22,078 nucleotides of DNA, from IMG/VR virus record IMGVR_UViG_3300003690_000454, positions 1-22,078 of that record. One strand, given 5' to 3'. The notes beneath the pieces are model-generated. The model was not told the DNA's origin and searched no databases. It saw only the letters and a program-made list of their open reading frames with translations. Every line of letters begins with the position of its first letter. Position 1 is the stretch's first letter. Of this stretch, positions 1,691-22,076 are shown piece after piece. The DNA is from a virus. Position numbers and translations under genes: made by a program.

Positions 1691-1691
1691 T

Positions 1692-1720
1692 TTGCAATCG
1701 TTTTTTTGCTAACGTAGTGT
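1692..1720 (+). promoter_or_regulatory. Weak sigma70-like promoter candidate upstream of the structured leader
   Basis: TTGCAA at 1692-1697 and TAGTGT at 1715-1720 are separated by 17 nt. Matches to the consensus are 4/6 and 3/6, so this is a suggestion only. Transcription would start near 1727, just at the first hairpin. Confidence 0.25.
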
Positions 1721-1727
1721 AGAGACA

Positions 1728-1762
1728 ATGCGGGCGGGCGTGCAAAGTATACGCCGCCGCAT
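1728..1762 (+). other. GC-rich stem-loop in the protease-capsid intergenic region
   Basis: The left arm 1728-1741 (ATGCGGGCGGGCGT) pairs with the right arm 1751-1762 (ACGCCGCCGCAT) as 12 base pairs with two bulged G residues, around a 9-nt loop. The stem does not end in a T run, so it is not itself a terminator. Together with the terminator downstream it fills the only long gap in the head operon. Confidence 0.55.
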
Positions 1763-1790
1763 CCAAGGAAAAAACAACCCGGCTCAAAGT

Positions 1791-1835
1791 AAGCCTGCAC
1801 GATACACACGGTGTGTCGTTCGCAGGCTTTTTTTG
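1791..1835 (+). terminator. Rho-independent terminator upstream of the capsid gene
   Basis: AAGCCTGC (1791-1798) pairs with GCAGGCTT (1822-1829), and the inner arms CGATACAC and GTGTGTCG pair with one G-U around a three-base loop. The hairpin runs straight into seven T residues (1828-1834). It lies 28 nt before the capsid start, so capsid expression must come from read-through, antitermination or a promoter not seen here. Confidence 0.75.
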
Positions 1836-1862
1836 TGTCAAAACCACGAACGGAGAACTACA

Positions 1863-3221: not shown

Positions 3222-3244
3222 CCACAAACACAGGAGACAATGAC

Positions 3245-3718
3245 ATGAGCGCACGTTTCAGCGAGACAGTTCATATTGTTAACGGTCTGCCGCCAGTGGC
3301 TGACGCCCTGGCCGGCACGACCAATAGCGACATCGTGAATATGGAGGGATATGGAAAATGCACCTTCATCGTTCACGGCGGCATCGGCACAACCGGCACC
3401 TCGGTATTCACCGTGCAGGCCAGCGACGATGTCAGCGCCTCGAATACGACTGCAATCAAGTTTGCATACCGTCAGATCACCAGCGGTGACACGCACGGTG
3501 CGTTGACGAATGCGAGCACATCCGGCTATACGAACACGGCGGGCAGTAACGACATCGAGATAATCGAAGTCAGCGCCGAAGACTTGAGCAGCACTGGCTA
3601 TAGCTATGTCAGGCTGCACGCAGTCGAGTCAGCGAATGATCCGGTACTGGCAGGGATTCTAATCATCCTGTCCGATCCCCGGTTCCCGCAAAGCGTGACA
3701 GATAGCGCGATCACGTAA
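3245..3718 (+). CDS. Small head protein, probable capsid decoration or head-associated protein
   Basis: A 157-residue protein directly after the capsid gene with a good AGGAG site (about 3231-3235). It is rich in Thr, Ser and Gly and reads as alternating beta strands (for example CTFIVHGGIGTTGTSVFTVQ); there is no signal peptide or TM segment. Proteins of this size and place in HK97-type phages are commonly decoration, cement or minor head proteins, so the role is inferred from position and composition. I do not recognise a named family. The gene is followed by a hairpin (3731-3778). Confidence 0.55.
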   Translation: MSARFSETVHIVNGLPPVADALAGTTNSDIVNMEGYGKCTFIVHGGIGTTGTSVFTVQASDDVSASNTTAIKFAYRQITSGDTHGALTNASTSGYTNTAGSNDIEIIEVSAEDLSSTGYSYVRLHAVESANDPVLAGILIILSDPRFPQSVTDSAIT

Positions 3719-3730
3719 ACGCAAAAGATC

Positions 3731-3778
3731 GCCGGAGTATCCTGTGAAAGGGCGTAGCCTGAGTAGCAGGACTCCGGC
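3731..3778 (+). other. Stem-loop after the decoration-like gene (weak terminator or mRNA structure)
   Basis: GCCGGAGT (3731-3738) pairs perfectly with ACTCCGGC (3771-3778), continued by CCTG and CAGG across a 2-nt bulge. The sequence after it is only moderately T-rich (ATTTATT), so termination would be partial; it could instead act as an mRNA boundary that sets capsid-gene transcript levels. Confidence 0.5.
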
Positions 3779-3804
3779 ATTTATTGTCACTGGAGGGCGG
3801 AAGC

Positions 3805-3990
3805 ATGGCAGCGAGTGTTTTTACATTCAAGAAGCGGTACACGCCAGATGCCGGCGGGCGCGAGTTCTCGGCCGGCGACAAGATCCCGGTCAAGGATATC
3901 ACGCCGGAACTCGCGAAGGTGCTGATCGATGGCGGCTACTGCACGGCCCCGAAAAAGCGGGCGGCAGCGAAGAAGACAGCGACCACATGA
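3805..3990 (+). CDS. Small hypothetical head-region protein with Lys/Ala tail
   Basis: A 61-residue protein. A TTG start 21 bases earlier is possible, but ATG 3805 follows GGAGGGCGG at 3792-3800 with good spacing. The N-terminal 45 residues form a compact pattern (ASVFTFKKRYTPDAGGREFSAGDKIPV, then LAKVLIDGGYC), with SH3-like turn residues. The last 14 residues are Lys/Ala (KKRAAAKKT), a tail often seen on small phage head proteins. Its stop overlaps the connector start. Function is not known. Confidence 0.7.
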   Translation: MAASVFTFKKRYTPDAGGREFSAGDKIPVKDITPELAKVLIDGGYCTAPKKRAAAKKTATT

Positions 3991-4808
3991 ACCTGCATCA
4001 ATCGCAGCTCGCGACCTGGTCGCCGGTCACGCTGGACGATGCGAAGCAGCATAGCCGGATCGACATCGACGACGACAACGCGCTGATCACCGCGCAACTG
4101 TCGGCAGCGGTGGTGCGTGGTGAGCATGTGACCAATCGGCAATTCGCGCCGGCGACATGGGTGCTGAAGCTCGACGCCTTTCCTGGCACCGACACAATCG
4201 AGCTGCCGAAGCCGCCGCTGCTATCTATCTCATCGATCCAGTACGTCGATACCGACGGCGCAACGCAGACATTCAGCAGCAGCGACTACAGCGCCGACCG
4301 AACAAGCGAGCCGGGACGGGTGATACTTGGCTACAGCAATTCTTGGCCGTCGGCCCGAGCGCAGCCGGACGCGATCACGATCACCTATATCGCCGGGTAT
4401 GGTTCGGTCGTGACGGCGGTCAATGCGACGAATGTCTTCACGATCGCCAGCGGCGGCAGGACGTATGCCGACAATATGCAAGTGCGGCTATTCTCGGTCG
4501 GCGGCGATGTCCCGACCGGCCTGACTGCCGACACCGCATACTACATTCGCGACGTGAGCGGCTCGACATTCAAGCTGGCGCTGACCGCCGGCGGCACTGC
4601 GATCAGCATCAGCACGGACGGAACCGGCACGATCTACATCGACGAGGTGCCGGAAATCATCAAGGCCGCAATCAAGCTGGAGGCCGCGCAGCTGTATGAG
4701 AATCGAGAAAGCTACCTGTCCGATGTTCAGGGCGCTACGCCGGTGACCAATCCGACAGCGGACGACATCTACCGACAGTTACACATTCACACGACGGAGT
4801 GGACATGA
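3987..4808 (+). CDS. Head-tail connector, HK97 gp6-like, with an inserted beta domain
   Basis: A 273-residue protein. The flanks match the phage gp6-like head-tail connector: WSPVTLDDAKQHSRIDIDDD and DNALITAQLSAAV at the N-terminus, ITITYIAGYG near 131-140, and VPEIIKAAIKLEAAQLYENR at 221-240, which in ordinary family members follows the AGYG segment directly. Here about 75 residues (about 142-218) interrupt that junction; they look like a beta-sandwich module with VPTGLTADTAYYI and STFKLALTAGGTAI. The family normally has 100-200 residues, so the insert explains the extra length. The protein would form the ring under the portal. It overlaps both neighbours by 4 bases. The insert resembles the beta domain of the next three genes. 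Confidence 0.8.
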   Translation: MNLHQSQLATWSPVTLDDAKQHSRIDIDDDNALITAQLSAAVVRGEHVTNRQFAPATWVLKLDAFPGTDTIELPKPPLLSISSIQYVDTDGATQTFSSSDYSADRTSEPGRVILGYSNSWPSARAQPDAITITYIAGYGSVVTAVNATNVFTIASGGRTYADNMQVRLFSVGGDVPTGLTADTAYYIRDVSGSTFKLALTAGGTAISISTDGTGTIYIDEVPEIIKAAIKLEAAQLYENRESYLSDVQGATPVTNPTADDIYRQLHIHTTEWT

Positions 4809-5515
4809 CGGCGATACAATATGCGACATCGCGCCGGCTCGATCAGATAATAGACAGCCAGGGTGACGGCACCGGAACAGTCAATCAAGCGCAGGGCGCG
4901 AAGACAGTTTCGGGTGCGACCAACGCCACACCGATCGTCGTGACGGCAACCTCGCACGGATACAGTGATGGTGATTTCGTGAACATTACCGGCGTCGTGG
5001 GAAACACTGCCTGCAACGATCTGCACATCATCCGAAATAAGACATCGAACACGTTCGAGCTGACGACGCCAGCGGGTGCAAACGTCGCCGGGAACGGTTC
5101 ATACTCGAGCGGCGGTGCGGCACATCTGTCATTCACCTGCAAGCCGGCAGCTGGTGAGCAGTTCTGTTTACATAAATTTACTGGATACTTTCTCGATAGC
5201 GGCATAACGGACGATCTTTACATGGCCGAGGCTGCACTGTCCGTCGGAATTAAAATCGAGATACGGCAGAACACAACGCTGGTACATACGGTATCACCGA
5301 CACCGATTAAGACGGCACCCGTCGGCTGGTCATTGGGTGCATTGCCGATGCAATTTGCCGAGTCACTGGGGAGTGCAGCGCATTCATTCGCTTGGCGTTT
5401 TTCGAGTTGTTTTATCAATCTCGACGGCGACGCAGATGATTTTTTTGTGGTTCTTCACAGCGATTCCATTGCAATCGAAGAGCAGGTAATGAGCATCCAC
5501 GGCGAGACGATATGA
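4805..5515 (+). CDS. Structural protein with E1-FCCH-like domain, tandem paralogue 1
   Basis: A 236-residue protein. ATG 4805 is used because of the ATGA overlap and the GGAG just upstream; a GTG two codons earlier is possible. Domain one (about 33-107) carries TATSHGYSDGDFVNITGVVG and then NTFELTTPAG, the pattern that phage proteins share with the FCCH domain of ubiquitin-activating E1. In phages this is a structural beta barrel and says nothing about ubiquitin. Domain two (about 108-236) contains AALSVGIKIEIRQNTT and TPIKTAPVGWSLG and ends in MSIHGETI. It is the first of three adjacent paralogues. Its N-terminal half is nearly identical in DNA to the second copy. Placement in the neck operon suggests a neck, collar or head-fibre protein; that is inference. 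Confidence 0.7.
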   Translation: MTAIQYATSRRLDQIIDSQGDGTGTVNQAQGAKTVSGATNATPIVVTATSHGYSDGDFVNITGVVGNTACNDLHIIRNKTSNTFELTTPAGANVAGNGSYSSGGAAHLSFTCKPAAGEQFCLHKFTGYFLDSGITDDLYMAEAALSVGIKIEIRQNTTLVHTVSPTPIKTAPVGWSLGALPMQFAESLGSAAHSFAWRFSSCFINLDGDADDFFVVLHSDSIAIEEQVMSIHGETI

Positions 5516-6216
5516 TCGCATATAGTCCATCCAGGCGGCTCGACCAGGTACTCGACAGCCAGGGCGACGGCACCGGAACGATTAACCAAGCACAGGGCGC
5601 GAAGACAGTTTCGGGTGCGACCAACGCCACACCGATCGTCGTGACGGCAACCTCGCACGGATACAGCGATGGTGATTTCGTGAACATTACCGGCGTCGTA
5701 GGAAACACTGCCTGCAACGATCTGCATATCATCCAGAACAAGACATCGAACACATTCGAATTAACCACACCGGCAGGAGCAAACGTCGCCGGGAACGGTT
5801 CATACTCGAGCGGCGGTGCTGCGCACTTATCGTTCGCGTGTAAGCCAGCAGCTGGTGAAACATATTGCGTGAATAGATTCACCGGATACTTCATCGACTC
5901 CAGTTCGAGGGACGACTTTTACATGAACGAGGCTGCACTGAGCGTCGGCATCAAAGTGCAGGTGCGGCAGAATACGACGCTGGAGTATACGGTATCGCCG
6001 ACACCGATCAAGACGGCTCCGGTCGGCTGGTCACTGGGTGCATTGCCGATGCAAGTGGTCGATGCAATGGGCGGCGCCGCCTATTCTTTTAATTGGATTT
6101 TCTCGAGCTGTTTGATGAATCTTGACGGCGATACAGATGATTTTTTTGTAGTCCTTCACAGCGATGCAATCGCAATCGAACAGCAACTTATGAGCATCCA
6201 CGGAGAGTCGATATGA
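5512..6216 (+). CDS. Structural protein with E1-FCCH-like domain, tandem paralogue 2
   Basis: A 234-residue paralogue of the gene before it, starting on ATG 5512 within the previous stop. From 5593 to 5734 it differs from 4892-5033 at only three bases that I can count, so this half was duplicated or converted recently. The C-terminal domain has diverged more (SSSRDDFYMNEAALSVGIKV against the first copy's SGITDDLYMAEAALSVGIKI). It keeps the shared PIKTAPVGWSLGALPMQ and IAIEQQLMSIHGESI segments. Differences cluster in the surface-like stretch before the YM(A/N)EAALSVGIK segment and in the stretch after GALPMQ. Confidence 0.7.
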   Translation: MIAYSPSRRLDQVLDSQGDGTGTINQAQGAKTVSGATNATPIVVTATSHGYSDGDFVNITGVVGNTACNDLHIIQNKTSNTFELTTPAGANVAGNGSYSSGGAAHLSFACKPAAGETYCVNRFTGYFIDSSSRDDFYMNEAALSVGIKVQVRQNTTLEYTVSPTPIKTAPVGWSLGALPMQVVDAMGGAAYSFNWIFSSCLMNLDGDTDDFFVVLHSDAIAIEQQLMSIHGESI

Positions 6217-6917
6217 TCGCATACAGTCCATCCCGCCAGTTGAGCCAGGTACTCGACAGCCAGGGCGACGGCACCGGCACGATCAACCAGGTATTCGCAG
6301 CGAAATCTATTACCGGCGCGACCAATGCCACACCGATCGTCGTCACTTCATCGAGTCATGGATACAGCGATGGTGACTTCGTGAACATCACCGGAGTCGT
6401 CGGAAACACTGCGTGTAACGATCTGCACATCGTCGCGAATAAGACGGCAAACACGTTCGAATTAACGACGCCAGCGGGTGCAGATGTCGCCGGGAACGGT
6501 TCATACTCGAGCGCCGGTGCGATACATCTGTCATTCGCCTGCAAGCCGGCGGCTGGTGAAACATTCTGCTTGCATAAGTTGAACGGATATTTTATCGATT
6601 CCGCTGCCACTCACAATCTATACATGGCCGAGGCTGCACTGAGCGTCGGCATCAAAGTGCAGGTGCGCCAGAATACGACGCTGATACATACGATCTCACC
6701 GCAGCCGATCAAGACTGCACCCGTCGGCTGGTCACTGGGCGCCGATCAAGGATCATTCGACGAAGGCATCAGCGGCGAACCGTATCAGTTCGTGTGGAGC
6801 TTCGAGGACTGCATCGTGAACATGACCGGCGATGCCAACGAGTTCTTTGTCATTCTGAATTCCGATGCGATCGCAATCGAGCAGCAGATAATGAGCGTCC
6901 ACGGAGAGTCGATCTGA
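6213..6917 (+). CDS. Structural protein with E1-FCCH-like domain, tandem paralogue 3
   Basis: A 234-residue third copy, again in ATGA overlap. It is the most diverged of the three: VFAAKSITGATNATPIVVTS replaces the AQGAKTVSGAT start of the beta domain, and the C-terminal region has GADQGSFDEGISGEPYQFVW where the others have GALPMQ. It keeps the HGYSDGDFVNITGVVGNTAC core and the ending IMSVHGESI. Its stop overlaps the ATG of the joining protein (TGATG). Confidence 0.7.
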   Translation: MIAYSPSRQLSQVLDSQGDGTGTINQVFAAKSITGATNATPIVVTSSSHGYSDGDFVNITGVVGNTACNDLHIVANKTANTFELTTPAGADVAGNGSYSSAGAIHLSFACKPAAGETFCLHKLNGYFIDSAATHNLYMAEAALSVGIKVQVRQNTTLIHTISPQPIKTAPVGWSLGADQGSFDEGISGEPYQFVWSFEDCIVNMTGDANEFFVILNSDAIAIEQQIMSVHGESI

Positions 6918-7252
6918 TGCCGTCCGCAGGGCAAATGCGAAACCGGGTCGAGGTGCAACAGGCGCAGGAAAGTGCCGACGCGCACGGGCAGACCTCTCGC
7001 GCCTGGACAACGATCGCGACACGCTGGGCATCGATTTCGTCCGAGGCCGGCGATGAAGTTCTCGAGGGCGGGCGCCAGGACGTGCGCAACACGCACAGCA
7101 TCCGAATGCGTAGCTTCCCGGCGGTGCAGGCTGACACGCACCGGCTGATCGTGCGCGGCATTGTCTACGACATTAACAGCAGCACGCACGACCGTGCCGG
7201 CAAGCAGCGCACAACTGCAATCGCAGCGACAGATACAGGCGAAACGGCATGA
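6917..7252 (+). CDS. Head-tail joining (head closure) protein
   Basis: A 111-residue protein with the pattern of the phage head-tail joining family (SPP1 gp16 / HK97 gp7 type): MRNRVEVQQAQESADAHGQT and RAWTTIATRWASISSEAGDE near the start, then TRH-like RNTHSIRMR, and RGIVYDINSSTHDRAGKQR as the final strands. It would cap the connector and retain DNA. ATG 6917 is supported by the TGATG overlap; the open frame extends upstream only as a shadow of the previous gene. Confidence 0.85.
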   Translation: MPSAGQMRNRVEVQQAQESADAHGQTSRAWTTIATRWASISSEAGDEVLEGGRQDVRNTHSIRMRSFPAVQADTHRLIVRGIVYDINSSTHDRAGKQRTTAIAATDTGETA

Positions 7253-7674
7253 CATTGAAGGACGAAATCACGCGCTATTTGAAAGGCAATGCCGGCATCG
7301 CCGCCGCTGTGGCCGGGCGCATCTTTCCCGGCCTGGCGCCGCAGTCGGCATCGCGGCCCTATTTGCTGTGGTCACGCATCGCCGATGCACCGGGGCATCA
7401 CATCGCTGCTGCATCTGATATGTCATCTGCGCTGATCCAGGTGGACGTGATGGCAGACAGCAGCATCGCAGCCGAGACAGCAGCCGAGGCGGTGCGCGAG
7501 GCGGTGGACGGTTACCACGGCACGCTGAACGACGAGTTCCAGATCGACTCGATGTGGCTCGATGCCGAGGCCGACTTCGTCGAGTCGAAGGGTGACGGCA
7601 GCGACGACAACACCTATCAAATTTCCTTATCAATCACAGTCAACTATCGGCGCACGGTGCCGGTATTCACATAA
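7249..7674 (+). CDS. Tail terminator / tail completion protein, DUF3168-like
   Basis: A 141-residue protein fitting the DUF3168 family (SPP1 gp17-like tail completion): MTLKDEITRYLKGNAGIAAA, then GRIFPGLAPQSASRPYLLWSR, then the strand ALIQVDVMAD, the helix AAETAAEAVREAVDGYHGTL, and a final YQISLSITVNYRR strand. It would form the ring that ends tail-tube growth and docks to the head. It sits immediately before the tail-tube gene, as expected, and overlaps the joining protein by 4 bases. Confidence 0.8.
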   Translation: MTLKDEITRYLKGNAGIAAAVAGRIFPGLAPQSASRPYLLWSRIADAPGHHIAAASDMSSALIQVDVMADSSIAAETAAEAVREAVDGYHGTLNDEFQIDSMWLDAEADFVESKGDGSDDNTYQISLSITVNYRRTVPVFT

Positions 7675-7690
7675 CCAAGGAGAATAGAAA

Positions 7691-8122
7691 ATGCCTGGAG
7701 AATCATCTCGATCCATCATCGGCGCAACAGTCGTCTTCGGTACGTCGTCGTACTCTCAACGGATCACCAGCGTCGGCATCAGTGGTGCCGGCCGCACGGC
7801 TATTCCAACCTCGCACCGCACGACCCTGGCGACCTCGGGAAAGTTCGGTAATATGACATTCCGAGCAAGCGACCTGGTTAATCCTGGCACGCTCGATCTG
7901 GGCATTCATTACGATCCCGACGACGTGCCTATCATCGACACCGCCGCTGAGACTTGCACGATCACGTGGAAGACCGTCTCGGGTGACAGCAGCGGCTCGA
8001 TACTCGCGGCTTCGTATTTCGCCACGGACTTCTCGTTCAGCGGCAGCGTTGATAGCGAGCTGTGCGAAGGTTCGATCACGGGTCAGTTGACCGGCAATGT
8101 GACCAGGACAGCTGCAGGCTAA
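7691..8122 (+). CDS. Major tail tube protein
   Basis: A 143-residue protein, preceded by AAGGAG at 7677-7682. The length, place between the terminator and chaperone genes, and beta-rich sequence (TVVFGTSSYSQRITSVGIS, then GTLDLGIHYDPDDVPIIDTA, then ETCTITWKT) fit the gpV/gp10-type tail tube fold, including the YFATDFSFSGSVDSELCEGS segment near the C-terminus. It would polymerise into hexameric rings around the tape measure. The ending TGQLTGNVTR is also typical of tube subunits. Confidence 0.75.
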   Translation: MPGESSRSIIGATVVFGTSSYSQRITSVGISGAGRTAIPTSHRTTLATSGKFGNMTFRASDLVNPGTLDLGIHYDPDDVPIIDTAAETCTITWKTVSGDSSGSILAASYFATDFSFSGSVDSELCEGSITGQLTGNVTRTAAG

Positions 8123-8139
8123 TACAGGAGGGCGAGGCG

Positions 8140-8430
8140 ATGGCGATACTTAATGTGGCAGGCATGACCTGCGAGGGCGTCATACGCCCGGCGACAAAGG
8201 CCGAATGCGGCATCACCGGCGACTGCTATGCGGTCGAGCTCGTGAATGCCGCCGGCGAGCATATCACAGTCATCCGTGATGGCGCACAGCCGGCAGCTAA
8301 TTTGTTGTCAGCGGTGCGCAATCACGGCTACAAGTTAGTGACCATACGGGCAGCGACGAAGGCCGAGCGCGGCCCGGCAGAACCGGCGAAGGAAACAAAA
8401 ACAAACACAATAAAAGGGGCGAAGGGATGA
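8140..8430 (+). CDS. Small hypothetical tail-region protein
   Basis: A 96-residue protein with an excellent AGGAGGG site (8126-8132). The N-terminal 70 residues look folded (MAILNVAGMTCEGVIRPATK, then YAVELVNAAGEHITVIRDGA), and the last 20 residues are a charged Lys/Thr/Ala tail. The gene lies between the tube and the chaperone and overlaps the chaperone by 4 bases, which suggests a tail-assembly role. I do not recognise a family. Confidence 0.65.
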   Translation: MAILNVAGMTCEGVIRPATKAECGITGDCYAVELVNAAGEHITVIRDGAQPAANLLSAVRNHGYKLVTIRAATKAERGPAEPAKETKTNTIKGAKG

Positions 8431-8774
8431 GCGAGCTACGGGGGAGATTGACCAGCGGGAAGTGGCTGCCGAGTGTCAAGGTCGAGGCCGACGAAATCGA
8501 GGACGGTTTGCTGATCCCGGTCAAGTCGATGTCGGCAAAGCTGCGGGCAGAGTGTATCGCATTCACTGACACCGGCAAGGAGAAAAGCGGCGCCGATAAT
8601 CTGGAGTTTCAACGCCGGATAATCGTGCAGACTGCCTGCGAGAATGACGGCACGCCGATCTTCAAGCTCGACGACACCCTGGACGGCGTGCCGGTAGTGA
8701 CGCAGCAGAACCTATTCGACGCCGCGCTCAAGGCGTCGGGAATGGGGAGCGATGACACCGACTCAAAAAACTGA
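8427..8774 (+). CDS. Tail assembly chaperone, G-like (unshifted product)
   Basis: A 115-residue protein in the position of lambda gpG. It has a short strand-rich start and a helical C-terminal half ending QQNLFDAALKASGMGSDDTD, typical of tail chaperones that coat the tape measure before tube assembly. Translation in the first frame ends at TGA 8772-8774, directly after the slippery run AAAAAAC. The alternative product is the fusion described next. Confidence 0.75.
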   Translation: MSELRGRLTSGKWLPSVKVEADEIEDGLLIPVKSMSAKLRAECIAFTDTGKEKSGADNLEFQRRIIVQTACENDGTPIFKLDDTLDGVPVVTQQNLFDAALKASGMGSDDTDSKN

Positions 8775-9145
8775 CCGAGGCCGTCGAGTTCTGGCACGAC
8801 CTTGCCATTGCACTCGGCGGCAGGACGGTGGACGAGTGGCAGCAGGCGATGTCTGCTGTGGAGTTCGCAAGCTGGATGCGATATTGCGCGAAGAAGCCGC
8901 TGCCGGCGCAGCGGGCAGACCTGCGTACAGCCAGGCAGACCACCGAGATCGCCGGCATGATGGGGGCTAAAAATGTCAAGCTATCCGATTTCATGTTCAA
9001 ATTCGATAGTGCCGAGGATGCCGGCAACGGCACGGGCCGGACGATGCCGCAGGAACAAGTATCGCACCTGCTGGATGCTGCAGCCACGCAGCACATCGAA
9101 AGCGGATACGGGGATATGATCGATGGCGATAGTTCTGATCCGTGA
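8427..9145 (+). CDS. Tail assembly chaperone G-T fusion produced by -1 ribosomal frameshift
   Basis: The first-frame codons AAA AAC, preceded by A, form the classical slippery heptamer A_AAA_AAC at 8765-8771, with the stop codon as the very next codon. After a -1 slip the frame continues as LTEAVEFWHDLAIALGGRTV and then DEWQQAMSAVEFASWMRYCA, the pattern of lambda gpT-type domains (Ala-Leu, Gly-x-Thr-Val-Asp-Glu, Met-Ser-x-x-Glu-Phe-x-x-Trp). The predicted fusion is 239 residues, 115 from G and 124 from T. The T frame has a TGA at 8753-8755, so it can be entered only between that stop and the first usable start, and no good start site precedes the conserved WHDLAIALGG. This fits the G/GT arrangement of many long-tailed phages. 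Strength of slippage cannot be judged from sequence. Confidence 0.85.
8765..8771 (+). promoter_or_regulatory. Slippery heptamer A_AAA_AAC for programmed -1 frameshift
   Basis: Six A residues followed by C, in phase with the upstream frame as A AAA AAC and followed at once by TGA. The downstream open frame is exactly -1. Both tRNAs can re-pair on A-rich codons, as in known bacterial sites. Confidence 0.85.
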
Positions 9146-9374
9146 CCTGAATGACTTCGGCGAGCATAAAGCCGACTGCGGCGGCAAGCTGGTACAAATC
9201 TGGTATGTCGATCCGCCGGTGATCCGCAGCAAGTCAGGACGGTGTAAGCGATGCAACGAGGTCATCAAGCTGCCGCCTGGCCTATGGCGCAACAAGCCGA
9301 TTATGATCCAGGGTAAACCGTTCAGTATGATCCGCAAAGCACTGGCTCGGCATGGCCGGTGGCAGGAGAGATAG
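9123..9374 (+). CDS. Small hypothetical protein with possible metal-binding Cys/His cluster
   Basis: An 83-residue protein that starts inside the last 23 bases of the T frame. It has His15-x3-Cys19 and Cys41-Lys-Arg-Cys44, four ligands that could bind zinc, followed by a basic, Trp- and Pro-containing tail (KLPPGLWRNKPIMIQGK). Position between the chaperone and tape measure is where some phages carry a small third chaperone-associated gene. The metal site is inferred from spacing only. Confidence 0.6.
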   Translation: MAIVLIRDLNDFGEHKADCGGKLVQIWYVDPPVIRSKSGRCKRCNEVIKLPPGLWRNKPIMIQGKPFSMIRKALARHGRWQER

Positions 9375-9377
9375 ACG

Positions 9378-11174
9378 ATGGCGAAGATAGCAGACATCTC
9401 GACGAAATTGTCGCTGAACAATCGCGACTTCAAAAAAGGCTTGCAGTCAACCAGCAAGAGTATCGGCAAGTTCCACGCTGCTTTCAAAAACGCAGCCGGC
9501 AGAATCGCGAAAGCCGGTGTCGTGGCCCTGGCCGCAGTCGGCGTCGCGCTGGTTGCCATTGTAAAAAAGACTGCCGAAAAGATCGACCAGATATCGAAGG
9601 AAGCCCGCAAGCTGGATATCACTACCGAGATGCTCGCCGGCCTCGGCCATGCCGCAAAGCTATCGGGCGTCAGCACCGAAAAGATGGGCAAGTCCCTTGT
9701 CAAAATGACGAAGTCCGTCAGCGAAGCGAACGCTGGACTATCCACGCAGGTACGTGCTTTCGGCGATCTGGGATTAGAAGTTGACGACTTGATAAAGATG
9801 GATGCCGGCGAGCAATTCCTGGCGATTGCTGATGCACTGCAGGATGTCGAGAACCATTCGGATAAGGTGCGCATCTCGATGGATGTATTCGGTCGTACTG
9901 GTGGCGATCTGCTGGTGACGATGGAGCAGGGCGCCGAGGGCATCCGTAAAGCAATCGAAGAAGCAAAGCGCCTGGGGATCACGTTTAGTGAAGAGCAGGG
10001 CGCAATGGTCGAGGAAGCGAACGACTCGATGACGAAACTGGGGGCAATCGCCGAAGGTGCGATGAATCAGTTGACGATCGGCGTGGCGCCATTCATCTCG
10101 CTGTGGTCTGATGCGATGACTGAGGCCGCACTCGAAGGCGAAAGCATGACCGATCGAGTTACCGGCGGGATCGAAAAGATCGTGAAGGTGATCGGCGTAC
10201 TTGGCAATGCTGTGAACCTGGTCAAGGGCGTGATTCAATTCGCCTTCGGCGGCATACAATTAGTGATCTTTGGGACGCTTAAAGGCATCAGTGAGTCGCT
10301 GATTTGGGTTTTCGGCAAGATCGATTTAGCATTACGAGCCGCCGCGAAGTTGCCAGGCGCTAAAAAGCTCGGAATCCCGGCAGGGATGGATCCTGCCCTA
10401 ACGCATGAGGAGACTATCGCAAAACTGCGCGGCGCGGCGGTGACAGAATATATCGAGCAGGGGTTTTCCGATGCCAAGGCGAATATCGCCGCCGGTAAGA
10501 AAGCAGTCGTTGCCGGCGCGACGGGATCTTTCGCTGACGACCTGCTCGCCGATTATCACGAAACATTGCGAAAGGCCGCAGTACGTGCGGGAGAAATAAA
10601 GAAGGAACATGAAGCCAGGAAAGCATTGAGAGATGCCACCGCAGCGGCAGAGAAAGCTATCAACGAAGCGAGAGCTGCCGACGCGAAGGCTGCCGCCGCA
10701 GTAAAGCCTGCTGGCGCGGCAGGGCTTCGACTTGTTGAGCCTGCTCCCGGCAAGAAAATTGTCAAAGAAGTTGTAAGGGTCATCGAGGATATCAAGAAAG
10801 CGAACGACGAGGTTGTAAAGGTCGTCGAGGATATCATTGAGGTAGTGCAGCCGCTCGGCAGGAAAGGGAGGTTTATGAAATTCGAAGTAAAGGCCGGCCC
10901 GAATCTGCTCGGCAAGAAAGCGAGGATAGGCGGTTTCGAAGTCAACATTCCGCAACGACGCCTGGAGGAAGTGATCGGAGAAAAGCAATTAAGGGAAGCA
11001 GCAGCGAAAGCGGATATACAGCTCTTGGAAGAACAACTCGCAGCAGGACGAAAGGAAGATATGCAGAATAACAAAGATGCTGCCGCTGCCGCTGAAAAAG
11101 ATAAGACATTGACATTAATTCTCACCGCAGTTGAACAAATCCGCGACTGCAAGTTCGTGGCTTTTGCATCGTGA
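9378..11174 (+). CDS. Tape measure protein
   Basis: A 598-residue protein, preceded by AGGAGAG at 9364-9370. It begins with an amphipathic helix (LSLNNRDFKKGLQSTSKSIG) common to tape measures, then a hydrophobic segment KAGVVALAAVGVALVAIV (about 45-62). The segment LGHAAKLSGVSTEKMGKSLV is a conserved tape-measure motif. A second hydrophobic stretch (about 270-305) and long Ala/Lys/Glu coiled coils follow, with a repeated VVK.VxEDI pattern near 455-480. With the common rule of about 0.15 nm per residue, the tail would be roughly 90 nm before any processing; that is an estimate. It lies after the chaperones as usual, and its stop overlaps the GTG of the gp10-like gene. Confidence 0.88.
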   Translation: MAKIADISTKLSLNNRDFKKGLQSTSKSIGKFHAAFKNAAGRIAKAGVVALAAVGVALVAIVKKTAEKIDQISKEARKLDITTEMLAGLGHAAKLSGVSTEKMGKSLVKMTKSVSEANAGLSTQVRAFGDLGLEVDDLIKMDAGEQFLAIADALQDVENHSDKVRISMDVFGRTGGDLLVTMEQGAEGIRKAIEEAKRLGITFSEEQGAMVEEANDSMTKLGAIAEGAMNQLTIGVAPFISLWSDAMTEAALEGESMTDRVTGGIEKIVKVIGVLGNAVNLVKGVIQFAFGGIQLVIFGTLKGISESLIWVFGKIDLALRAAAKLPGAKKLGIPAGMDPALTHEETIAKLRGAAVTEYIEQGFSDAKANIAAGKKAVVAGATGSFADDLLADYHETLRKAAVRAGEIKKEHEARKALRDATAAAEKAINEARAADAKAAAAVKPAGAAGLRLVEPAPGKKIVKEVVRVIEDIKKANDEVVKVVEDIIEVVQPLGRKGRFMKFEVKAGPNLLGKKARIGGFEVNIPQRRLEEVIGEKQLREAAAKADIQLLEEQLAAGRKEDMQNNKDAAAAAEKDKTLTLILTAVEQIRDCKFVAFAS

Positions 11175-16182: not shown

Positions 16183-16499
16183 TTGATGACAGCACGAAAC
16201 TTGATATCAACCTGAAATGGTTGCTGCAGATCGTGGCGTTCGTTGGATTCGCCGTCTGGGGATACTTCACGTTAACCAGCCAGATCACGCAGCTCGAGAT
16301 CGAGGTGATGCGGATGCGGGACAACGTCAACATGAACTCGACATTTCGGATCAAGTGGCCGCTCGGCGAGCTGGGCGCCCTGCCGGATGACGCTGAGCAG
16401 AATATGCGGCTGCATCATATCGAGGGCGATGTCGAGCAACTCAATAGATATGTCGATGGTCTACGATTCCAACCACAACCGAGGCGAGGTAACGAATGA
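16179..16499 (+). CDS. Single-TM coiled-coil membrane protein (possible inner-membrane spanin or holin accessory)
   Basis: A 106-residue protein starting at TTG 16179, which overlaps the previous stop. One TM segment (about 14-33, WLLQIVAFVGFAVWGYFTLT) is followed by a short coiled coil (ITQLEIEVMRMRDN) and a second helical stretch ending in RYVDGLRFQ. This layout, together with the adjacent overlapping lipoprotein gene, fits an i-spanin, but the protein is shorter than most i-spanins. A holin-associated or phage membrane protein of unknown role is equally possible. Confidence 0.6.
   Translation: MIDDSTKLDINLKWLLQIVAFVGFAVWGYFTLTSQITQLEIEVMRMRDNVNMNSTFRIKWPLGELGALPDDAEQNMRLHHIEGDVEQLNRYVDGLRFQPQPRRGNE
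16470..16498 (+). repeat. Start-associated repeat, copy before the lipoprotein gene
   Basis: CAACCACAACCGAGG (16470-16484) then GCGAGGTAACGAATG. The first 15 bases are identical to the copies at 19038 and 18544, but the core after GAGG differs. It spans the 3' end of the TM gene and the start codon at 16496. Confidence 0.65.
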
Positions 16500-17819: not shown

Positions 17820-17826
17820 ACCCCCG

Positions 17827-17866
17827 CCCGGCTGCAGTGTCCCCTTGCTGCAGTCGGGTTTTTTTT
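17827..17866 (+). terminator. Strong rho-independent terminator closing the late gene block
   Basis: CCCGGCTGCAG (17827-17837) pairs with CTGCAGTCGGG (17848-17858) over 11 bp with one G-U, followed by eight T residues (17859-17866). It separates the structural and lysis block from the small-gene block. Confidence 0.85.
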
Positions 17867-17940: not shown

Positions 17941-17956
17941 TACTTGCAAGCAAGTA
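17941..17956. promoter_or_regulatory. Inverted-repeat operator candidate overlapping a promoter
   Basis: TACTTGC and GCAAGTA flank a 2-nt spacer (AA), a perfect 7-bp dyad. It covers the -35 element of the promoter described next, where a bound dimeric repressor would block polymerase. The cognate regulator is not identified in this window. Confidence 0.55.
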
Positions 17957-17971
17957 CATACAGCCTATATT
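17944..17971 (+). promoter_or_regulatory. Sigma70-like promoter for the small-gene block
   Basis: TTGCAA (17944-17949) and TATATT (17966-17971, 5/6 match) are 16 nt apart in an AT-rich patch inside GC-rich surroundings, just after the terminator. The start would be near 17978, leaving about 48 nt of leader before ATG 18026. Confidence 0.6.
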
Positions 17972-18002
17972 GATAACATGATAACGAACGCAACAACGCA
18001 AG

Positions 18003-18028
18003 CAACCGACACCGAGGGCAGCACGATG
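18003..18028 (+). repeat. Start-associated repeat, copy 1
   Basis: CAACCGACACCGAGG (18003-18017) then GCAGCACGATG, ending at the start codon of the 18026 gene. It is the first copy downstream of the promoter and lies wholly in the untranslated leader. Confidence 0.75.
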
Positions 18029-18241
18029 ACGATTGAGAAACAAATTGAGTACTTGTGGAACAGTTCATTGGAGAGAGCAATTGGCTCAGGTGTCGCTGAT
18101 CCGTTTGGCTTTGCTGATGCTTCGACAGCATCACTGAATGCCAAGCTCAGGAAAATCAACAGGCTGGAAGTCAACGGCAGATTGCAGCAGGGAAGTCGGG
18201 CAGGACGGAAACAACAGCAAATTATGAGGGCAGCACGATGA
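18026..18241 (+). CDS. Small hypothetical protein
   Basis: A 71-residue protein, first of the small-gene block. ATG 18026 is chosen because of the GAGGGCAG site and repeat; an upstream in-frame ATG at 17978 coincides with the expected transcription start and has no ribosome site. The body is helical (KQIEYLWNSSLERAIGSGVA) and ends in a basic tail QSRAGRKQQQ-like followed by MRAAR, where RAAR is encoded by the repeat of the next gene. No family recognised. Confidence 0.6.
   Translation: MTIEKQIEYLWNSSLERAIGSGVADPFGFADASTASLNAKLRKINRLEVNGRLQQGSRAGRKQQQIMRAAR
18211..18240 (+). repeat. Start-associated repeat, copy 2
   Basis: ACAACAGCAAATTAT followed by the exact core GAGGGCAGCACGATG (18226-18240). 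The A/C part has diverged, but the 15-base core is intact; translated, it gives the C-terminal RAAR of the upstream protein. Confidence 0.7.
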
Positions 18242-18519
18242 AGATTTACAGAGTAAGCTACAGCGGACATACGGCATCCGATCCTGACGCAGTGATGGGG
18301 GGAGCGGGGGAGCCGTTTGAGTATGGATACAGCTATCACGCATCGAAGCGGGAAGCGTCGGCGTGCAGGCATCAATTCATGCTGCGGGAAGGGGGCAATG
18401 ATCCGTTCAGCGAGATTGACGAGTACAGCTTCCCCATCAGAAAGAAGGGAATGCTCCTGGCACTGCAGCAGCTTGCAAGTCATGGCACGGACGGCTACCT
18501 CGGGCGCGAGTCATGCTGA
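18238..18519 (+). CDS. Small hypothetical phage protein
   Basis: A 93-residue protein in ATGA overlap. It begins MKIYRVSYSGHTASDPDAVM, continues with EYGYSYHASKREASACRHQF and has an acidic segment then SFPIRKKGMLLALQQLASHG near the end. This strand-helix-strand-helix layout, with a final 'fPxxKKGmLxxLxxxA' helix, is common among small early phage proteins of unknown role. Confidence 0.65.
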   Translation: MKIYRVSYSGHTASDPDAVMGGAGEPFEYGYSYHASKREASACRHQFMLREGGNDPFSEIDEYSFPIRKKGMLLALQQLASHGTDGYLGRESC

Positions 18520-18540
18520 TCCACAATTCACCACGCACCG

Positions 18541-18572
18541 CAACCACAACCACAACCGAGGGCAGCACGATG
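18541..18572 (+). repeat. Start-associated repeat, copy 3
   Basis: CAACCACAACCACAACCGAG (18541-18560) then GGCAGCACGATG. The CAACCA unit is tandemly duplicated here, giving a longer A/C tract than in most copies. Confidence 0.8.
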
Positions 18573-18812
18573 ACGACGACGAAGACATTCCAAAAACGCT
18601 GTGCTTCACAACTACGGCACTACGGGAACGAAAACCTGACTGCTTGTCCAGATTGGGTGTTTGCCCATTGCGGTTTACCGCAACCCGATTGGGACAGGAT
18701 ATATGGAGCGGCGGATTCTGCGACCTACTCATTAGAAAACCGCAGCTTTCGCGAATACTGGGAAATGCACCGGCATACGACGACACCCACAACCGAGAGG
18801 ACCGCACGATGA
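18570..18812 (+). CDS. Small hypothetical protein, Cys/Trp-containing
   Basis: An 80-residue protein. ATG 18570 is chosen from the repeat; the frame is open from ATG 18513, but that would translate the repeat as TATTTTTEGST. The folded part includes RCASQLRHYGNENLTACPDW, then HCGLPQPDWDRIYGAADSA, and it ends with the repeat-derived TTPTTERTAR. No family recognised. Confidence 0.6.
   Translation: MTTTKTFQKRCASQLRHYGNENLTACPDWVFAHCGLPQPDWDRIYGAADSATYSLENRSFREYWEMHRHTTTPTTERTAR
18786..18811 (+). repeat. Start-associated repeat, copy 4
   Basis: CCCACAACCGAGAGG (18786-18800) then ACCGCACGATG. One extra GA and a GC-to-CC change separate it from the consensus. It lies inside the 3' end of the upstream gene. 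Confidence 0.7.
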
Positions 18813-19066
18813 GAAAAACGCGAGACATGACCAAGATGCAATTCGCCAAAGCCTGTGTGCAGTGCGGATTCGAGCCGAGCAGTTTCGGTGGCGGCTACTT
18901 TTGCATCTACAAATACGCAGGTGGTTCAACAAATAATGTCTATGCCCGCAACGGCGGTGATTCCTACCGCGAGATGCTGGCATATCTCAAAAAGATGCAG
19001 AGACACGATGAAAAGAAAAGAGAAGAAGCCAACGAAACAACCACAACCGAGAGGGCAGCACGATGA
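18809..19066 (+). CDS. Small hypothetical protein
   Basis: An 85-residue protein in ATGA overlap; the frame is open far upstream only as a shadow. It begins MRKTRDMTKMQFAKACVQCG, has the aromatic segment GGGYFCIYKYAGGSTNNVYA, and a charged helix REMLAYLKKMQRHDEKKREE. It ends ETTTTERAAR, which is the in-frame translation of the next gene's start-associated repeat. Confidence 0.65.
   Translation: MRKTRDMTKMQFAKACVQCGFEPSSFGGGYFCIYKYAGGSTNNVYARNGGDSYREMLAYLKKMQRHDEKKREEANETTTTERAAR
19038..19065 (+). repeat. Start-associated repeat, copy 5
   Basis: CAACCACAACCGAGAGG (19038-19054) then GCAGCACGATG; this is close to the consensus plus a GA insertion shared with copy 4. Confidence 0.8.
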
Positions 19067-19419
19067 CGACAACGAAAGCAACCGACGAACTACTGACCAA
19101 GATCGCAGTTCACTTTTTCCCGACCTGCGAAACACTCGAAACGCGCAACAGCGACAGCCTCGACTTCCATGAGACTGCGGTCTGGTCGATCAAGGAAGCA
19201 CTGCAGCAGGCGTTCGAGCTTGGCCGGCAGACGGCTGACGAGACACCGACAACCGAGGCAAGCACGATCGACGACCGTGACCGTGGATTCGCTGGCGGGA
19301 TCGCCGACGCCATCATGGATGCGATCTATGAAACCTGCCGGGGCAATGATGTGCCGGTCGATGCGATGACAGCTATCGGTCGCGAGGCATTACGCCAGGC
19401 GTCCGAGCGCAACGGATAA
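19063..19419 (+). CDS. DUF6900-like small phage protein with C-terminal extension
   Basis: A 118-residue protein. The first 60 residues contain ETLETRNSDSLDFHETAVWS followed by IKEALQQAFELGRQ, a pattern I associate with DUF6900, a small family common in phages and mobile elements and without known function. The part after residue 62 starts with PTTEASTI, encoded by a decayed start-associated repeat, and continues as a separate helical unit (GFAGGIADAIMDAIYETCRG, then VDAMTAIGREALRQA). The gene therefore looks like two former ORFs joined in frame. Confidence 0.7.
   Translation: MTTTKATDELLTKIAVHFFPTCETLETRNSDSLDFHETAVWSIKEALQQAFELGRQTADETPTTEASTIDDRDRGFAGGIADAIMDAIYETCRGNDVPVDAMTAIGREALRQASERNG
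19244..19269 (+). repeat. Decayed start-associated repeat inside a coding region
   Basis: CACCGACAACCGAGG (19244-19258) then CAAGCACGATC. The expected ATG reads ATC, and the copy is translated in frame as part of the DUF6900-like protein. Confidence 0.6.
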
Positions 19420-19420
19420 G

Positions 19421-19452
19421 CAACCACAACCACAACCGAGGCCAACACGATG
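19421..19452 (+). repeat. Start-associated repeat, copy 6 (intergenic)
   Basis: CAACCACAACCACAACCGAG (19421-19440), identical to copy 3 over 20 bases, then GCCAACACGATG. It begins just after the TAA stop of the upstream gene. Confidence 0.8.
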
Positions 19453-19630
19453 ACGAAGACACCGAAGAACCAATCAGGCATTCCGGCGCCTGGTGCGCGA
19501 GTTACCTGGCGAGTCGGACAGCGCGAGAGTGCAAGGGGCCGTGGCGCGTGACCAGCGCGTGCGCGAGCTGCTCGTAGACGAAGACAACTTGGCGATCCTT
19601 ATCGCCAAACTGTCCGAGGTCTACCGATAG
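19450..19630 (+). pseudogene. Small gene with an apparent frameshift
   Basis: ATG 19450 after a start-associated repeat opens MTKTPKNQ but this frame ends after 33 codons at TGA 19549-19551. The +1 frame has protein-like content from about 19475: AFRRLVRELPGESDSARVQG, then AVARDQRVRELLVDEDNLAI and LIAKLSEVYR, ending at TAG 19628-19630. Joined, the product would be about 59 residues and helical. The change of frame must fall near 19470-19483. It may be a real mutation, an assembly error or a recoding site. A GTG at 19493 could start the second part alone, but no ribosome site precedes it. Confidence 0.5.
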
Positions 19631-19655: not shown

Positions 19656-19741
19656 GGTGTGGGTGGTGGGCCTTTTCCCTTAACTTTTGCCTTATGAAGG
19701 AAAATTATGAAAGTTAGGGTTTCAGCTACACCACCCACACC
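19656..19741. other. Large nested stem-loop in a non-coding interval
   Basis: GGTGTGGGTGGTG (19656-19668) is an exact inverse of CACCACCCACACC (19729-19741). Inside, CCCTTAACTTT (19677-19687) pairs with AAAGTTAGGG (19710-19719) with one bulged T, and CCTT/AAGG close the tip (19690-19700). The region between the SAS-linked small genes and the HTH gene (19631-19870) holds no gene. The stem has no T run after it on the + strand. It could be a structured RNA, a replication or packaging element, or a recombination site. Confidence 0.7.
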
Positions 19742-19870: not shown

Positions 19871-20077
19871 ATGAAAGACGAAAGAAACACGCAATGGGGA
19901 ACGGCAGCAGACGCCGCCGCGATCCTTGACGTGTCGATCGGCACTGTTGACCGATGGATGCGCGAGGGCCGGGTGACGTTCCGCAAGCTGGGGCAGCGGC
20001 TGAGTCTTGAGGACGTGCGGCGCCTTGCGGAAGTCGGCGAGGTGCAGTACATGGCCGAGCGCGAGGTGATGACATGA
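19871..20077 (+). CDS. Excisionase-type / MerR-like HTH DNA-binding protein
   Basis: A 68-residue single-domain protein. The segment WGTAADAAAILDVSIGTVDR followed by WMREGRVTFRKLGQRLSLED is the excisionase-family winged helix (HTH_17): a first helix, the recognition helix with Thr-Val-Asp-Arg-Trp, and the wing Phe-Arg-Lys-Leu-Gly-Gln-Arg. Such proteins act as transcription regulators or recombination directionality factors. No integrase is visible in the window, so I would not call it Xis. It is first after the non-coding interval and the promoter candidate, and its leader (ACAACGAAACAAGCGAGGCA) is a faint relative of the start-associated repeats. Confidence 0.8.
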   Translation: MKDERNTQWGTAADAAAILDVSIGTVDRWMREGRVTFRKLGQRLSLEDVRRLAEVGEVQYMAEREVMT

Positions 20078-20135
20078 AAGCGTGACGAGTCGAGTTCGCA
20101 TTACTGATTCTAAACTATCACAGCAGGGGGAAGAA

Positions 20136-20978
20136 ATGGCGAAGGCAACGATCGAGACAATCAGCCCGAGACAAGCGGAGAAAATGCTGGCAATGAATAC
20201 GGGCAATTTCCGCCCGATCAGCAAGATCCGGACGACCCTATACGCCCAGGAAATGGCGTCAGGGAACTGGGACTGCAACGGCGAGTCGATAAAGATGAAC
20301 GGCAATGAACTGATCGACGGGCAGCACCGGCTTGAGGCAATTATCGAGTCAGGCATTCCGATCACATCAGTCGTCGTGCGTGGTCTGGAATCAGATGGCC
20401 GCACCATTGACCGAGGCCAACCGCGATCAATGGCGCAATGGCTCAGTCATAAGGGGATCAAGAATGGATCCGCCATGCCGGGGCTGGTTCGGTGCTGTAT
20501 AGGATATGAAGAGGGCCTTTGGGGCAGGCAAACGTCTCGGTCTTATACGATCCCAGATTCCGAGATATACAGATTCATCGAATCCCACGAACCGCGATTA
20601 CAGGAAGTGATACAGGTCGTGAGCAAGTCCCGACCACTGATTGCGGGGACTCTCTCGGGTGCGGTTCTGTTCTATGGTTCCGAGCAGATTGAAGACATCG
20701 CAGCGAATCCGACTGTGCGGTGGTTCTTCGATAGGTTGACGGATGGCAAGATGCTCGACGAAGATGATGCCGTCTTCCATTTGCGGAATCGGCTGATCAA
20801 GCATTCGCCATTTACCAAGATTCCGTCATTCATCAAGCGGTCATATATGGTGATTGCCTGGAATAAGACAGTGCGCGGAGAATCCTGCACCTCGCATCAG
20901 ATGACGCTACGCATGACCGGGCCAAACAAGCCGAAGCTGCCGACGACGATCGAACGACTCAGCGAGGTGACAGCATGA
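20136..20978 (+). CDS. ParB/sulfiredoxin-fold (DGQHR motif) phage protein
   Basis: A 280-residue protein; ATG 20136 follows AGGGGG at 20125-20130, and a 54-base upstream extension has no site. The N-terminal domain contains NFRPISKIRTTLYAQEMASG, then NELIDGQHRLEAIIESGIPI with the Asp-Gly-Gln-His-Arg motif (61-65), then TIDRGQPRSMAQWL. These define the ParB-like nuclease/DGQHR fold common in phages and in DndB-type proteins. The C-terminal half is helical with several Arg/Trp residues. It may bind DNA or a nucleotide; its substrate is not known. It is in one operon with a membrane protein, a PAPS-reductase-like protein and a methyltransferase start. Confidence 0.75.
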   Translation: MAKATIETISPRQAEKMLAMNTGNFRPISKIRTTLYAQEMASGNWDCNGESIKMNGNELIDGQHRLEAIIESGIPITSVVVRGLESDGRTIDRGQPRSMAQWLSHKGIKNGSAMPGLVRCCIGYEEGLWGRQTSRSYTIPDSEIYRFIESHEPRLQEVIQVVSKSRPLIAGTLSGAVLFYGSEQIEDIAANPTVRWFFDRLTDGKMLDEDDAVFHLRNRLIKHSPFTKIPSFIKRSYMVIAWNKTVRGESCTSHQMTLRMTGPNKPKLPTTIERLSEVTA

Positions 20979-21220
20979 CGGCGATACCATCACCAGCACA
21001 CCGCGCATATCGCAGGGCGTTGCCCGACGCCTGGGGCCGGTACATCGTCATCGGTGGCCTGCTGCTGGCGCTCATGGTACTGGCGACGACCGTCGCGGCG
21101 ACACGCACCTACGGCGACAACGACGAGACATGGGACGAGGTGCTACCGGCACCGCCGTGCGCCTGGTACTTGCTCGTCGCACCGGAGACACGCCCGCGCA
21201 TTCACTGGCGGTGGGTATGA
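20975..21220 (+). CDS. Small single-TM membrane protein
   Basis: An 81-residue protein in ATGA overlap with both neighbours. A basic N-terminus (RAYRRALPDAWGR) precedes one TM segment (about 23-43, YIVIGGLLLALMVLATTVAA), then an acidic stretch and a Trp/Pro-rich end. Topology by charge is N-in. Function unknown; its coding by overlap suggests it is expressed with the modification-type genes. Confidence 0.65.
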   Translation: MTAIPSPAHRAYRRALPDAWGRYIVIGGLLLALMVLATTVAATRTYGDNDETWDEVLPAPPCAWYLLVAPETRPRIHWRWV

Positions 21221-22014
21221 CAGATGAACTGGCAATCATCGACCTCGCCGTTGAGCAGTACAATCCGAGCCATACCTTCGCCTTGTTTTCGGGCGGTCAC
21301 GACTCGCTCTGTGCCACTCATTTAGCAAGTCAGCATCCAGCCTTCAGCGGAGTCGTACATATCAACACTGGCATCGGGATTGCGGAGACTCGGCAGTTCG
21401 TCCTCGACACCTGTGCTGAGAATGGCTGGCCGTTGAAGGAATATCATCCCGAGAGAAGTTATGAAGACCTGTGCGTCGAGCATGGATTTCCTGGCCCTGC
21501 TGGTCACGGCCTCATGTACCAGCGACTCAAGGAGAGGTGTCTTCGACAACTGGTCAGGGATTCCCGTGATCCTAATGACCGGCGGCGCAAGATTATATTC
21601 ATCTCAGGCCGGCGGCGGAATGAAAGCGCCCGGCGCATGATCACAACGACCGAATCAATAACCACCGGAACGCCCACGCCATCGCCTCGCGTCGTATGGG
21701 TGGCACCGATCATCGAATGGCTATCGGAAGATAAGCGACTCTATATGGAAGCGAATAAACTTCGCAGCAACCTTGTCAGCGACACGCTGTGCATGAGTGG
21801 CGAGTGCCTTTGTGGCGCCTTTGCGAAGGCAAATGAACTGGAAGAGATCCGGCGCTTCTATCCTGCAGCCGCCGCCGAAATTGACCGTATATCGGCACTG
21901 GTCAAGGATGCAGGGAAGCACCACGTTTGGGGTACGCGGCCCGGCAAGCGCATCCATCCTGACCAGGCAGAATTACCGCTGTGCTGGTCGTGTCAGTCGA
22001 AGGCGGAAGCATGA
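21217..22014 (+). CDS. PAPS-reductase-like (PP-loop ATP pyrophosphatase family) protein with Cys cluster
   Basis: A 265-residue protein. The P-loop SGGHDS (25-30) is the PP-loop of the PAPS reductase/ATP sulfurylase family, with His in place of the more usual Lys, as in many phage members. HINTGIGIAETRQFV (48-62) and SGRRRNESARR (130-140) are the next family motifs. Cys192, Cys197 and Cys199 (LCMSGECLCG) plus Cys256 and Cys259 (CWSC) could hold an iron-sulfur cluster, as in DndC-type enzymes. Classical PAPS reductase has a different C-terminal Cys. Likely roles are adenylation or sulfur transfer, possibly in nucleic acid modification. ATG 21217 is set by the ATGA overlap; the frame is open upstream. 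Confidence 0.8.
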   Translation: MTDELAIIDLAVEQYNPSHTFALFSGGHDSLCATHLASQHPAFSGVVHINTGIGIAETRQFVLDTCAENGWPLKEYHPERSYEDLCVEHGFPGPAGHGLMYQRLKERCLRQLVRDSRDPNDRRRKIIFISGRRRNESARRMITTTESITTGTPTPSPRVVWVAPIIEWLSEDKRLYMEANKLRSNLVSDTLCMSGECLCGAFAKANELEEIRRFYPAAAAEIDRISALVKDAGKHHVWGTRPGKRIHPDQAELPLCWSCQSKAEA

Positions 22015-22076
22015 AGCTGACCAGCCTATTCGACGGGATCGGCGGGGTGCTTGAGTTCGACAAAGCGCAAGAATGA
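22011..22076 (+). CDS. Start of a DNA (cytosine-5) methyltransferase gene; frame closes after 21 codons
   Basis: The 21 residues begin MKLTSLFDGIGG, the N-terminus and AdoMet-binding motif I (Phe-x-Gly-x-Gly-Gly) of C5 cytosine methyltransferases. In that family this is followed by a hydrophobic run and an acidic residue; here it reads VLEFDKAQE and stops at TGA 22074-22076, two bases before the window ends. It overlaps the PAPS-reductase-like stop (ATGA). Either the gene is truncated or frameshifted, or the last 35 or so bases belong to a rearranged or misassembled end. The match rests on 12 residues. Confidence 0.5.
   Translation: MKLTSLFDGIGGVLEFDKAQE

Follow-up and report, generated by a model that had tools for sequence, protein, structure and literature searches.

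A start-associated repeat before the small genes of an uncultured phage and of its relative

The small-gene region and its repeat copies

The window (the whole 22,078-nucleotide stretch of phage DNA analyzed here, an IMG/VR virus record) carries portal, protease, capsid, head-tail adaptor, tail and tape-measure genes from about 12 to 11,174. Further genes extend from about 11,174 to a terminator-like hairpin at 17826, beyond which lie a promoter-like element and six small genes (Table 1). Promoter-like sites in this region are no more numerous than in shuffled sequence; the element at 17944–17971 is conserved in a relative of the phage. This relative, G001 (IMG/VR record IMGVR_UViG_3300032820_000052; 34,465 b), was reached by a motif scan and through the DUF6900 protein. 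It is syntenic with the window and approximately 71% identical to it at fourfold degenerate sites. Both ends of the G001 contig adjoin in the window (10971–11066), so G001 is probably a near-complete genome that is circularly permuted or terminally redundant. Searches for more relatives with the ParB-like, tail, 121-aa and DUF6900 proteins and with the conserved leader DNA returned G001 only.

Comparison of the small proteins with one another revealed no homology, and gene paralogy was therefore rejected as the source of the repeat described below. The DUF6900 half of gene 5 matches Pfam PF21841 (7.2e-21); its second half found no relative among GenBank phages. Gene 6 differs from its G001 orthologue by a short deletion after codon 9 (window 19450–19630), giving an apparent frameshift. 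The ATG at 17978 coincides with the transcription start expected from the promoter-like element, and in both phages it shares the reading frame of gene 1, so gene 1 may have a leaderless or alternative start there. Between the small genes and a downstream helix-turn-helix gene, a strongly folded element (19656–19741; z = -5.25 in a 161-nt context, with no shuffle as stable) contains a G/U-rich arm, GGUGUGGGUGGUGGG; the element is not alignable in G001.

Table 1. Coordinates of the repeat copies, small genes and neighboring features in the window
Feature	Position	Strand	Description
Half copy	16470–16498	+	CAACCACAACCGAGG (A/C tract and GAGG); precedes lipoprotein gene at 16496
Terminator-like hairpin	17826–17866	+	Intrinsic type, 14-pair stem then TTTTTTT; closes upstream (structural/lysis) operon
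Promoter-like element	17944–17971	+	TTGCAA-N16-TATATT; could drive small-gene operon; nearly identical in G001
Gene 1 leader	17978–18025	+	In frame with gene 1 from ATG 17978 (MITNATTQATDTEGST-M), also in G001
Copy 1	18003–18029	+	Core 18014–18029, ATG 18026; starts gene 1
Gene 1	18026–18241	+	71 aa, no family
Copy 2	18211–18241	+	Core 18226–18241, ATG 18238; tract weakly A/C; overlaps gene 1 stop
Gene 2	18238–18519	+	93 aa, no family
Copy 3	18540–18573	+	Core 18558–18573, ATG 18570; A/C tract fullest of all copies
Gene 3	18570–18812	+	80 aa; C-terminus TTTPTTERTAR* encoded by copy 4
Copy 4	18783–18812	+	Core 18797–18812, ATG 18809; overlaps gene 3 stop
Gene 4	18809–19066	+	85 aa; C-terminus TTTTERAAR* encoded by copy 5
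Copy 5	19037–19066	+	Core 19051–19066, ATG 19063; overlaps gene 4 stop
Gene 5	19063–19419	+	118 aa; DUF6900 half to about residue 61, then unrelated second half
Decayed copy	19243–19269	+	GAGGCAAGCACGATC at 19255–19269; inside gene 5, ATC for ATG
Copy 6	19421–19453	+	Core 19438–19453, ATG 19450
Gene 6	19450–19551	+	33 aa; apparent frameshift relative to 66-aa G001 orthologue (8069–8269)
ParB-like gene junctions compared	20050–20095 and 20940–21000		
PAPS reductase gene junctions compared	21195–21240 and 21990–22050		

A repeat is present in six intact copies and one decayed copy between 18.0 and 19.45 kb, as the first-pass annotation of this DNA had reported. The intact cores, GAGG-N4-CACGATGA, are all on the plus strand, with none on the opposite strand of the window, and each intact copy ends in a small gene's start codon. 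None of 100 shuffled sequences contained six cores; a scan that allowed one mismatch still gave six matches in the window, where shuffled sequence would be expected to give 0.22. When a scoring matrix was made from the window copies, the six scored 16.4 to 21.7 bits, compared with 12.4 ± 1.6 bits (highest, 17.6) for the best site in simulated sequence; copy 6, at 16.4 bits, thus falls within the simulated range when taken alone. Among the seven training sites, the decayed copy and copy 6 were out of register by one or two bases, leaving the matrix slightly too blunt, and the exact-pattern core counts are independent of it.

In G001 the starts at 7155, 7575 and 7794 each have an intact core. 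The nine cores of the two phages (six and three) occur at gene starts on the coding strand only, against an expectation of 0.01–0.02 per strand, and the genes behind them are non-homologous. Neither of the two patterns that the first-pass annotation held to count against its proposal, a core lying away from starts or a single duplicated gene family, is therefore seen. Two of the copies it listed are to be read differently. The half copy at 16470 is real as sequence; the lipoprotein gene uses a GAGG of its own, six bases from its ATG, and the half copy is missing from the orthologous start in G001. The copy placed at 19244 is indeed decayed, and it lies in frame within the open reading frame of gene 5, where it joins the two halves.

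Anatomy of the repeat and initiation of translation

The invariant part of the repeat is GAGG-N4-CACG-ATG. In the form originally proposed, an A/C-rich tract followed by a core, the tract is variable, and the full 26-mer occurs exactly only once in the window, at 18546–18571. Among ten copies, GAGG and CACG are each unchanged at 40 of 40 positions, whereas 7 of 40 positions deviate in the four bases between them (Fisher p=0.006). Identity among the copies drops to 31% past codon 5. The upstream tract is less conserved than the core and is kept mostly as A/C composition (88% A+C in the repeat leaders versus 59% in the other intergenic leaders of the phages). Conservation does exceed what a Shine-Dalgarno sequence needs, as had been claimed, but the excess lies mainly in CACG and not in the upstream tract.

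The copies contain two to four ACA triplets each (mean 2.3, compared with 0.81 at other starts; p=2e-5). A mild ACA enrichment is seen at other starts as well (0.81 versus 0.49 at random; p=0.006), and in this light the tract resembles an exaggeration of a general preference. The predicted fold of the 80 nt from −40 to +40 averages −7.3 kcal/mol at the repeat starts, compared with −17.3 and −17.1 kcal/mol at the other starts of the two phages and −22.8 kcal/mol at random sites, a low predicted structure that is partly due to the A/C composition itself. GAGG itself is predicted to be about as accessible at the copies (0.58) as at other intergenic starts (0.57). At 18238, 18809 and 19063 the start codon overlaps a stop codon as ATGA, and the repeat thus encodes the 3′ end of the preceding gene at these three window starts. 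No promoter or plus-strand terminator was found at the copies.

We favor the reading that the repeat is a dispersed translation-initiation module that is also where genes are exchanged, and we consider it probable, if well short of assured. The unstructured, ACA-bearing A/C-rich tract would aid loading of the 30S subunit, with GAGG acting as the Shine-Dalgarno sequence at 8-nt spacing. The invariant CACG would follow, and then ATGA, which would start the downstream gene and, one frame over, provide the TGA stop of the gene ending there. Copies would have spread by duplication and recombination before unrelated small genes of what appears to be one, possibly early, operon, probably beginning at the promoter-like element. 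ACA motifs upstream of the Shine-Dalgarno sequence enhance translation in Salmonella, and replacement of all four such motifs of dppA caused an over 100-fold loss (PMC3879156); by this analogy the A/C tract may enhance translation. Copy 2, with its weak tract (18211–18225) and intact core, is a counterpoint. The Shine-Dalgarno element of the repeat is only four bases long. The capsid protein found no relative among GTDB genomes, hence no host was assigned.

The first-pass annotation offered three uses for the repeat. The shared translation enhancer is the one favored here, and the shuffling of cassettes is read as an evolutionary consequence; for a regulator site there is no positive evidence beyond CACG. 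We know of no role for CACG in initiation, and simple ribosome loading therefore does not explain it. Its invariance is what could be expected if a small RNA, or a protein of the phage or its host, bound the A/C tract or CACGATGA in the mRNA and switched the gene set together. Small RNAs are known to target C/A-rich tracts adjacent to ribosome sites, GcvB being an example (PMC3879156), and the authors of the work on cluster K mycobacteriophages leave a bound factor open for the repeats of those phages. We nevertheless regard such a site as decidedly unlikely, given that the best inverted-repeat arms upstream of the copies are no better than at random positions, that an Rfam search found no small RNA and no regulator was identified, and that the folded element with the G/U-rich arm cannot be aligned in G001. 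As a source of antisense RNA to the A/C tracts, that element was set aside because G001 lacks it. CACG and the A/C tract together might instead be a phage-specific signal recognized by a factor, encoded or modified by the phage, that would start translation selectively on these genes, an idea to which we give very little credence; if it were true, a gene acquired behind a copy would join the regulon at once.

Conservation of the core could also reflect recent spread or homogenization of the copies. In the extreme case, slippage or unequal recombination recently duplicated one leader that functions as an ordinary ribosome site only. The A/C tract is a 6-bp microsatellite, and all copies fall within 1.45 kb, as such an origin would predict. 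The downstream genes are unrelated, however, the copies are common to a relative about 29% diverged at fourfold sites, and constraint is unequal within the core; we consider this explanation highly improbable.

Gene exchange relative to G001

Within 17978–19480, all four breakpoints of homology between the window and G001 fall inside repeat footprints, which cover 21% of the span (probability 0.002 if breakpoints were uniform). At the copy 1 junction, the leader is homologous through the ATG (18028) and the genes that follow are unrelated. Homology of the DUF6900 gene spans from its own copy to the next copy, and the flanks differ on either side. For gene 6, homology begins at the ATG, upstream of which the window has a copy and G001 has another gene.

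G001 also carries partial tandem copies before or just inside two of its three repeat-started genes, lengthening the reading frames as MTTTTTTE(D/G). The DUF6900 gene of G001 ends at the position of the decayed copy and is followed by an intact copy, so gene 5 of the window is best read as two small genes apparently joined in frame across a copy. Because the same 25–40 bp stand before unrelated genes and are open in the frame of the start codon, genes appear to have been gained, lost, tandem-extended and fused there. Gene C of G001 (7794–8072) has a C-terminus, TTTAADAAAIL, that echoes GTAADAAAIL of the downstream helix-turn-helix gene, which suggests a chimera formed by local recombination.

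The breakpoints, the decayed copy at the joint of the apparent fusion and the tandem copies in G001 are what would be seen if the repeat were kept mainly as short homology for shuffling small genes, its ribosome-site content being incidental. Nearly every gene boundary in the operon has a copy, however, so breakpoints at boundaries would hit copies anyway, and the four of four could result either from recombination at the repeat or from selection for intact genes. Moreover, the ParB-like gene (20136–20978) and the PAPS reductase gene (21217–22014) each represent an exact start-to-start insertion or loss relative to G001 at repeat-free ATGA junctions. The swaps there are equally precise, leaving promotion of recombination by the repeat undemonstrated. 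The unequal conservation within the core also points to use at starts, and we think it unlikely that shuffling is what mainly maintains the repeat. Under the favored reading of an initiation module, the shared sequence may still have caused the exchanges rather than merely marking them. The flanks of the ParB-like gene share a ribosome-site-like similarity, GCGAGGTGA..CATGA.

Relation to known start-associated elements

The start-associated sequences (SAS) of cluster K mycobacteriophages have a 13-bp consensus, GGGATAGGAGCCC, and are present in 11–19 copies per genome; about half carry 17-bp inverted-repeat extensions containing putative promoters (PMC3203893; PMC11373665; PMC12699233). The parallel drawn in the first-pass annotation holds as an analogy. 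Both are short direct repeats that lie at ribosome sites, within a few bases of the starts of many non-structural genes unrelated to one another, and both keep a single orientation and are conserved beyond pairing with 16S rRNA; the window copies are all on the plus strand and downstream of the structural genes. In the window repeat, by contrast, the invariant block includes the ATG, an A/C tract takes the place of inverted repeats, and some start codons overlap stop codons. The window contains no match to GGGATAGGAGCCC with up to two mismatches and no 17-bp inverted-repeat extension of the copies. Copies are also fewer, with six intact and one decayed in a 22-kb record that is possibly incomplete and three intact in the 34.5-kb G001. 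We therefore liken the repeat to the cluster K elements in how it may work, and do not assign it to them by sequence, copy number or extension.

The likeness extends to Microbacterium cluster EF phages, which have ten unusually conserved SAS-like motifs, GGGAAAGGACCCC, with an upstream extended motif around GTAGAG. These are again ribosome-site motifs at starts, in genomes little like those of cluster K, so the arrangement recurs (PMC7302621); their sequence is not that of the window repeat. The ACA enhancers of yifK and dppA resemble the repeat in having an ACA-rich, C/A-rich tract directly upstream of the Shine-Dalgarno sequence, where the window copies also have their ACA triplets, but they belong to individual bacterial genes that the small RNA GcvB targets, and not to a repeated phage module (PMC3879156). 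The promoter-early-stem-loops (PeSL) of T4-like phages are a repeated expression element proposed to mediate gene shuffling and consist of a promoter and a stem-loop (as cited in PMC4503421). The window copies have neither; one promoter-like site near the operon lies upstream of copy 1, and the starts are unusually unstructured.

Start-associated repeats are thus known in two actinobacterial phage groups, with their function unexplained. The window adds a further case, unrelated in sequence, in an uncultured phage whose lineage has no close relatives in GenBank. The case points to a specific function open to testing, in which an A/C-rich ACA enhancer is combined with a Shine-Dalgarno sequence and a coupled stop/start, and it comes with a close relative whose gene content differs precisely at the repeats. 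Such a module would help explain how phages add small uncharacterized genes while keeping them expressed.

Beyond the window and G001, no repeat array was found in IMG/VR, GTDB genomes, or GenBank phages or plasmids, and a 41-nt copy matched GenBank phages and plasmids only at E values of at least 0.2. A search of 257 Gb of genomes gave 18 single motif matches, none with a second core beside it at normal spacing. Fifteen of the 18 precede an open reading frame of at least 40 codons, which we do not take as support since the search pattern itself includes a ribosome site and ATG. Separately, a match on a viral contig (L006) is antisense and was dismissed as chance. Hits in L021 (1639), L022 (54), L027 and L035 were rejected as one Pseudomonas-type prophage gene family lacking an array. 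Members of that family share a single near-identical start context, ACAACCGAGGGCAACACGATGA, whose resemblance to the repeat is probably a coincidence.
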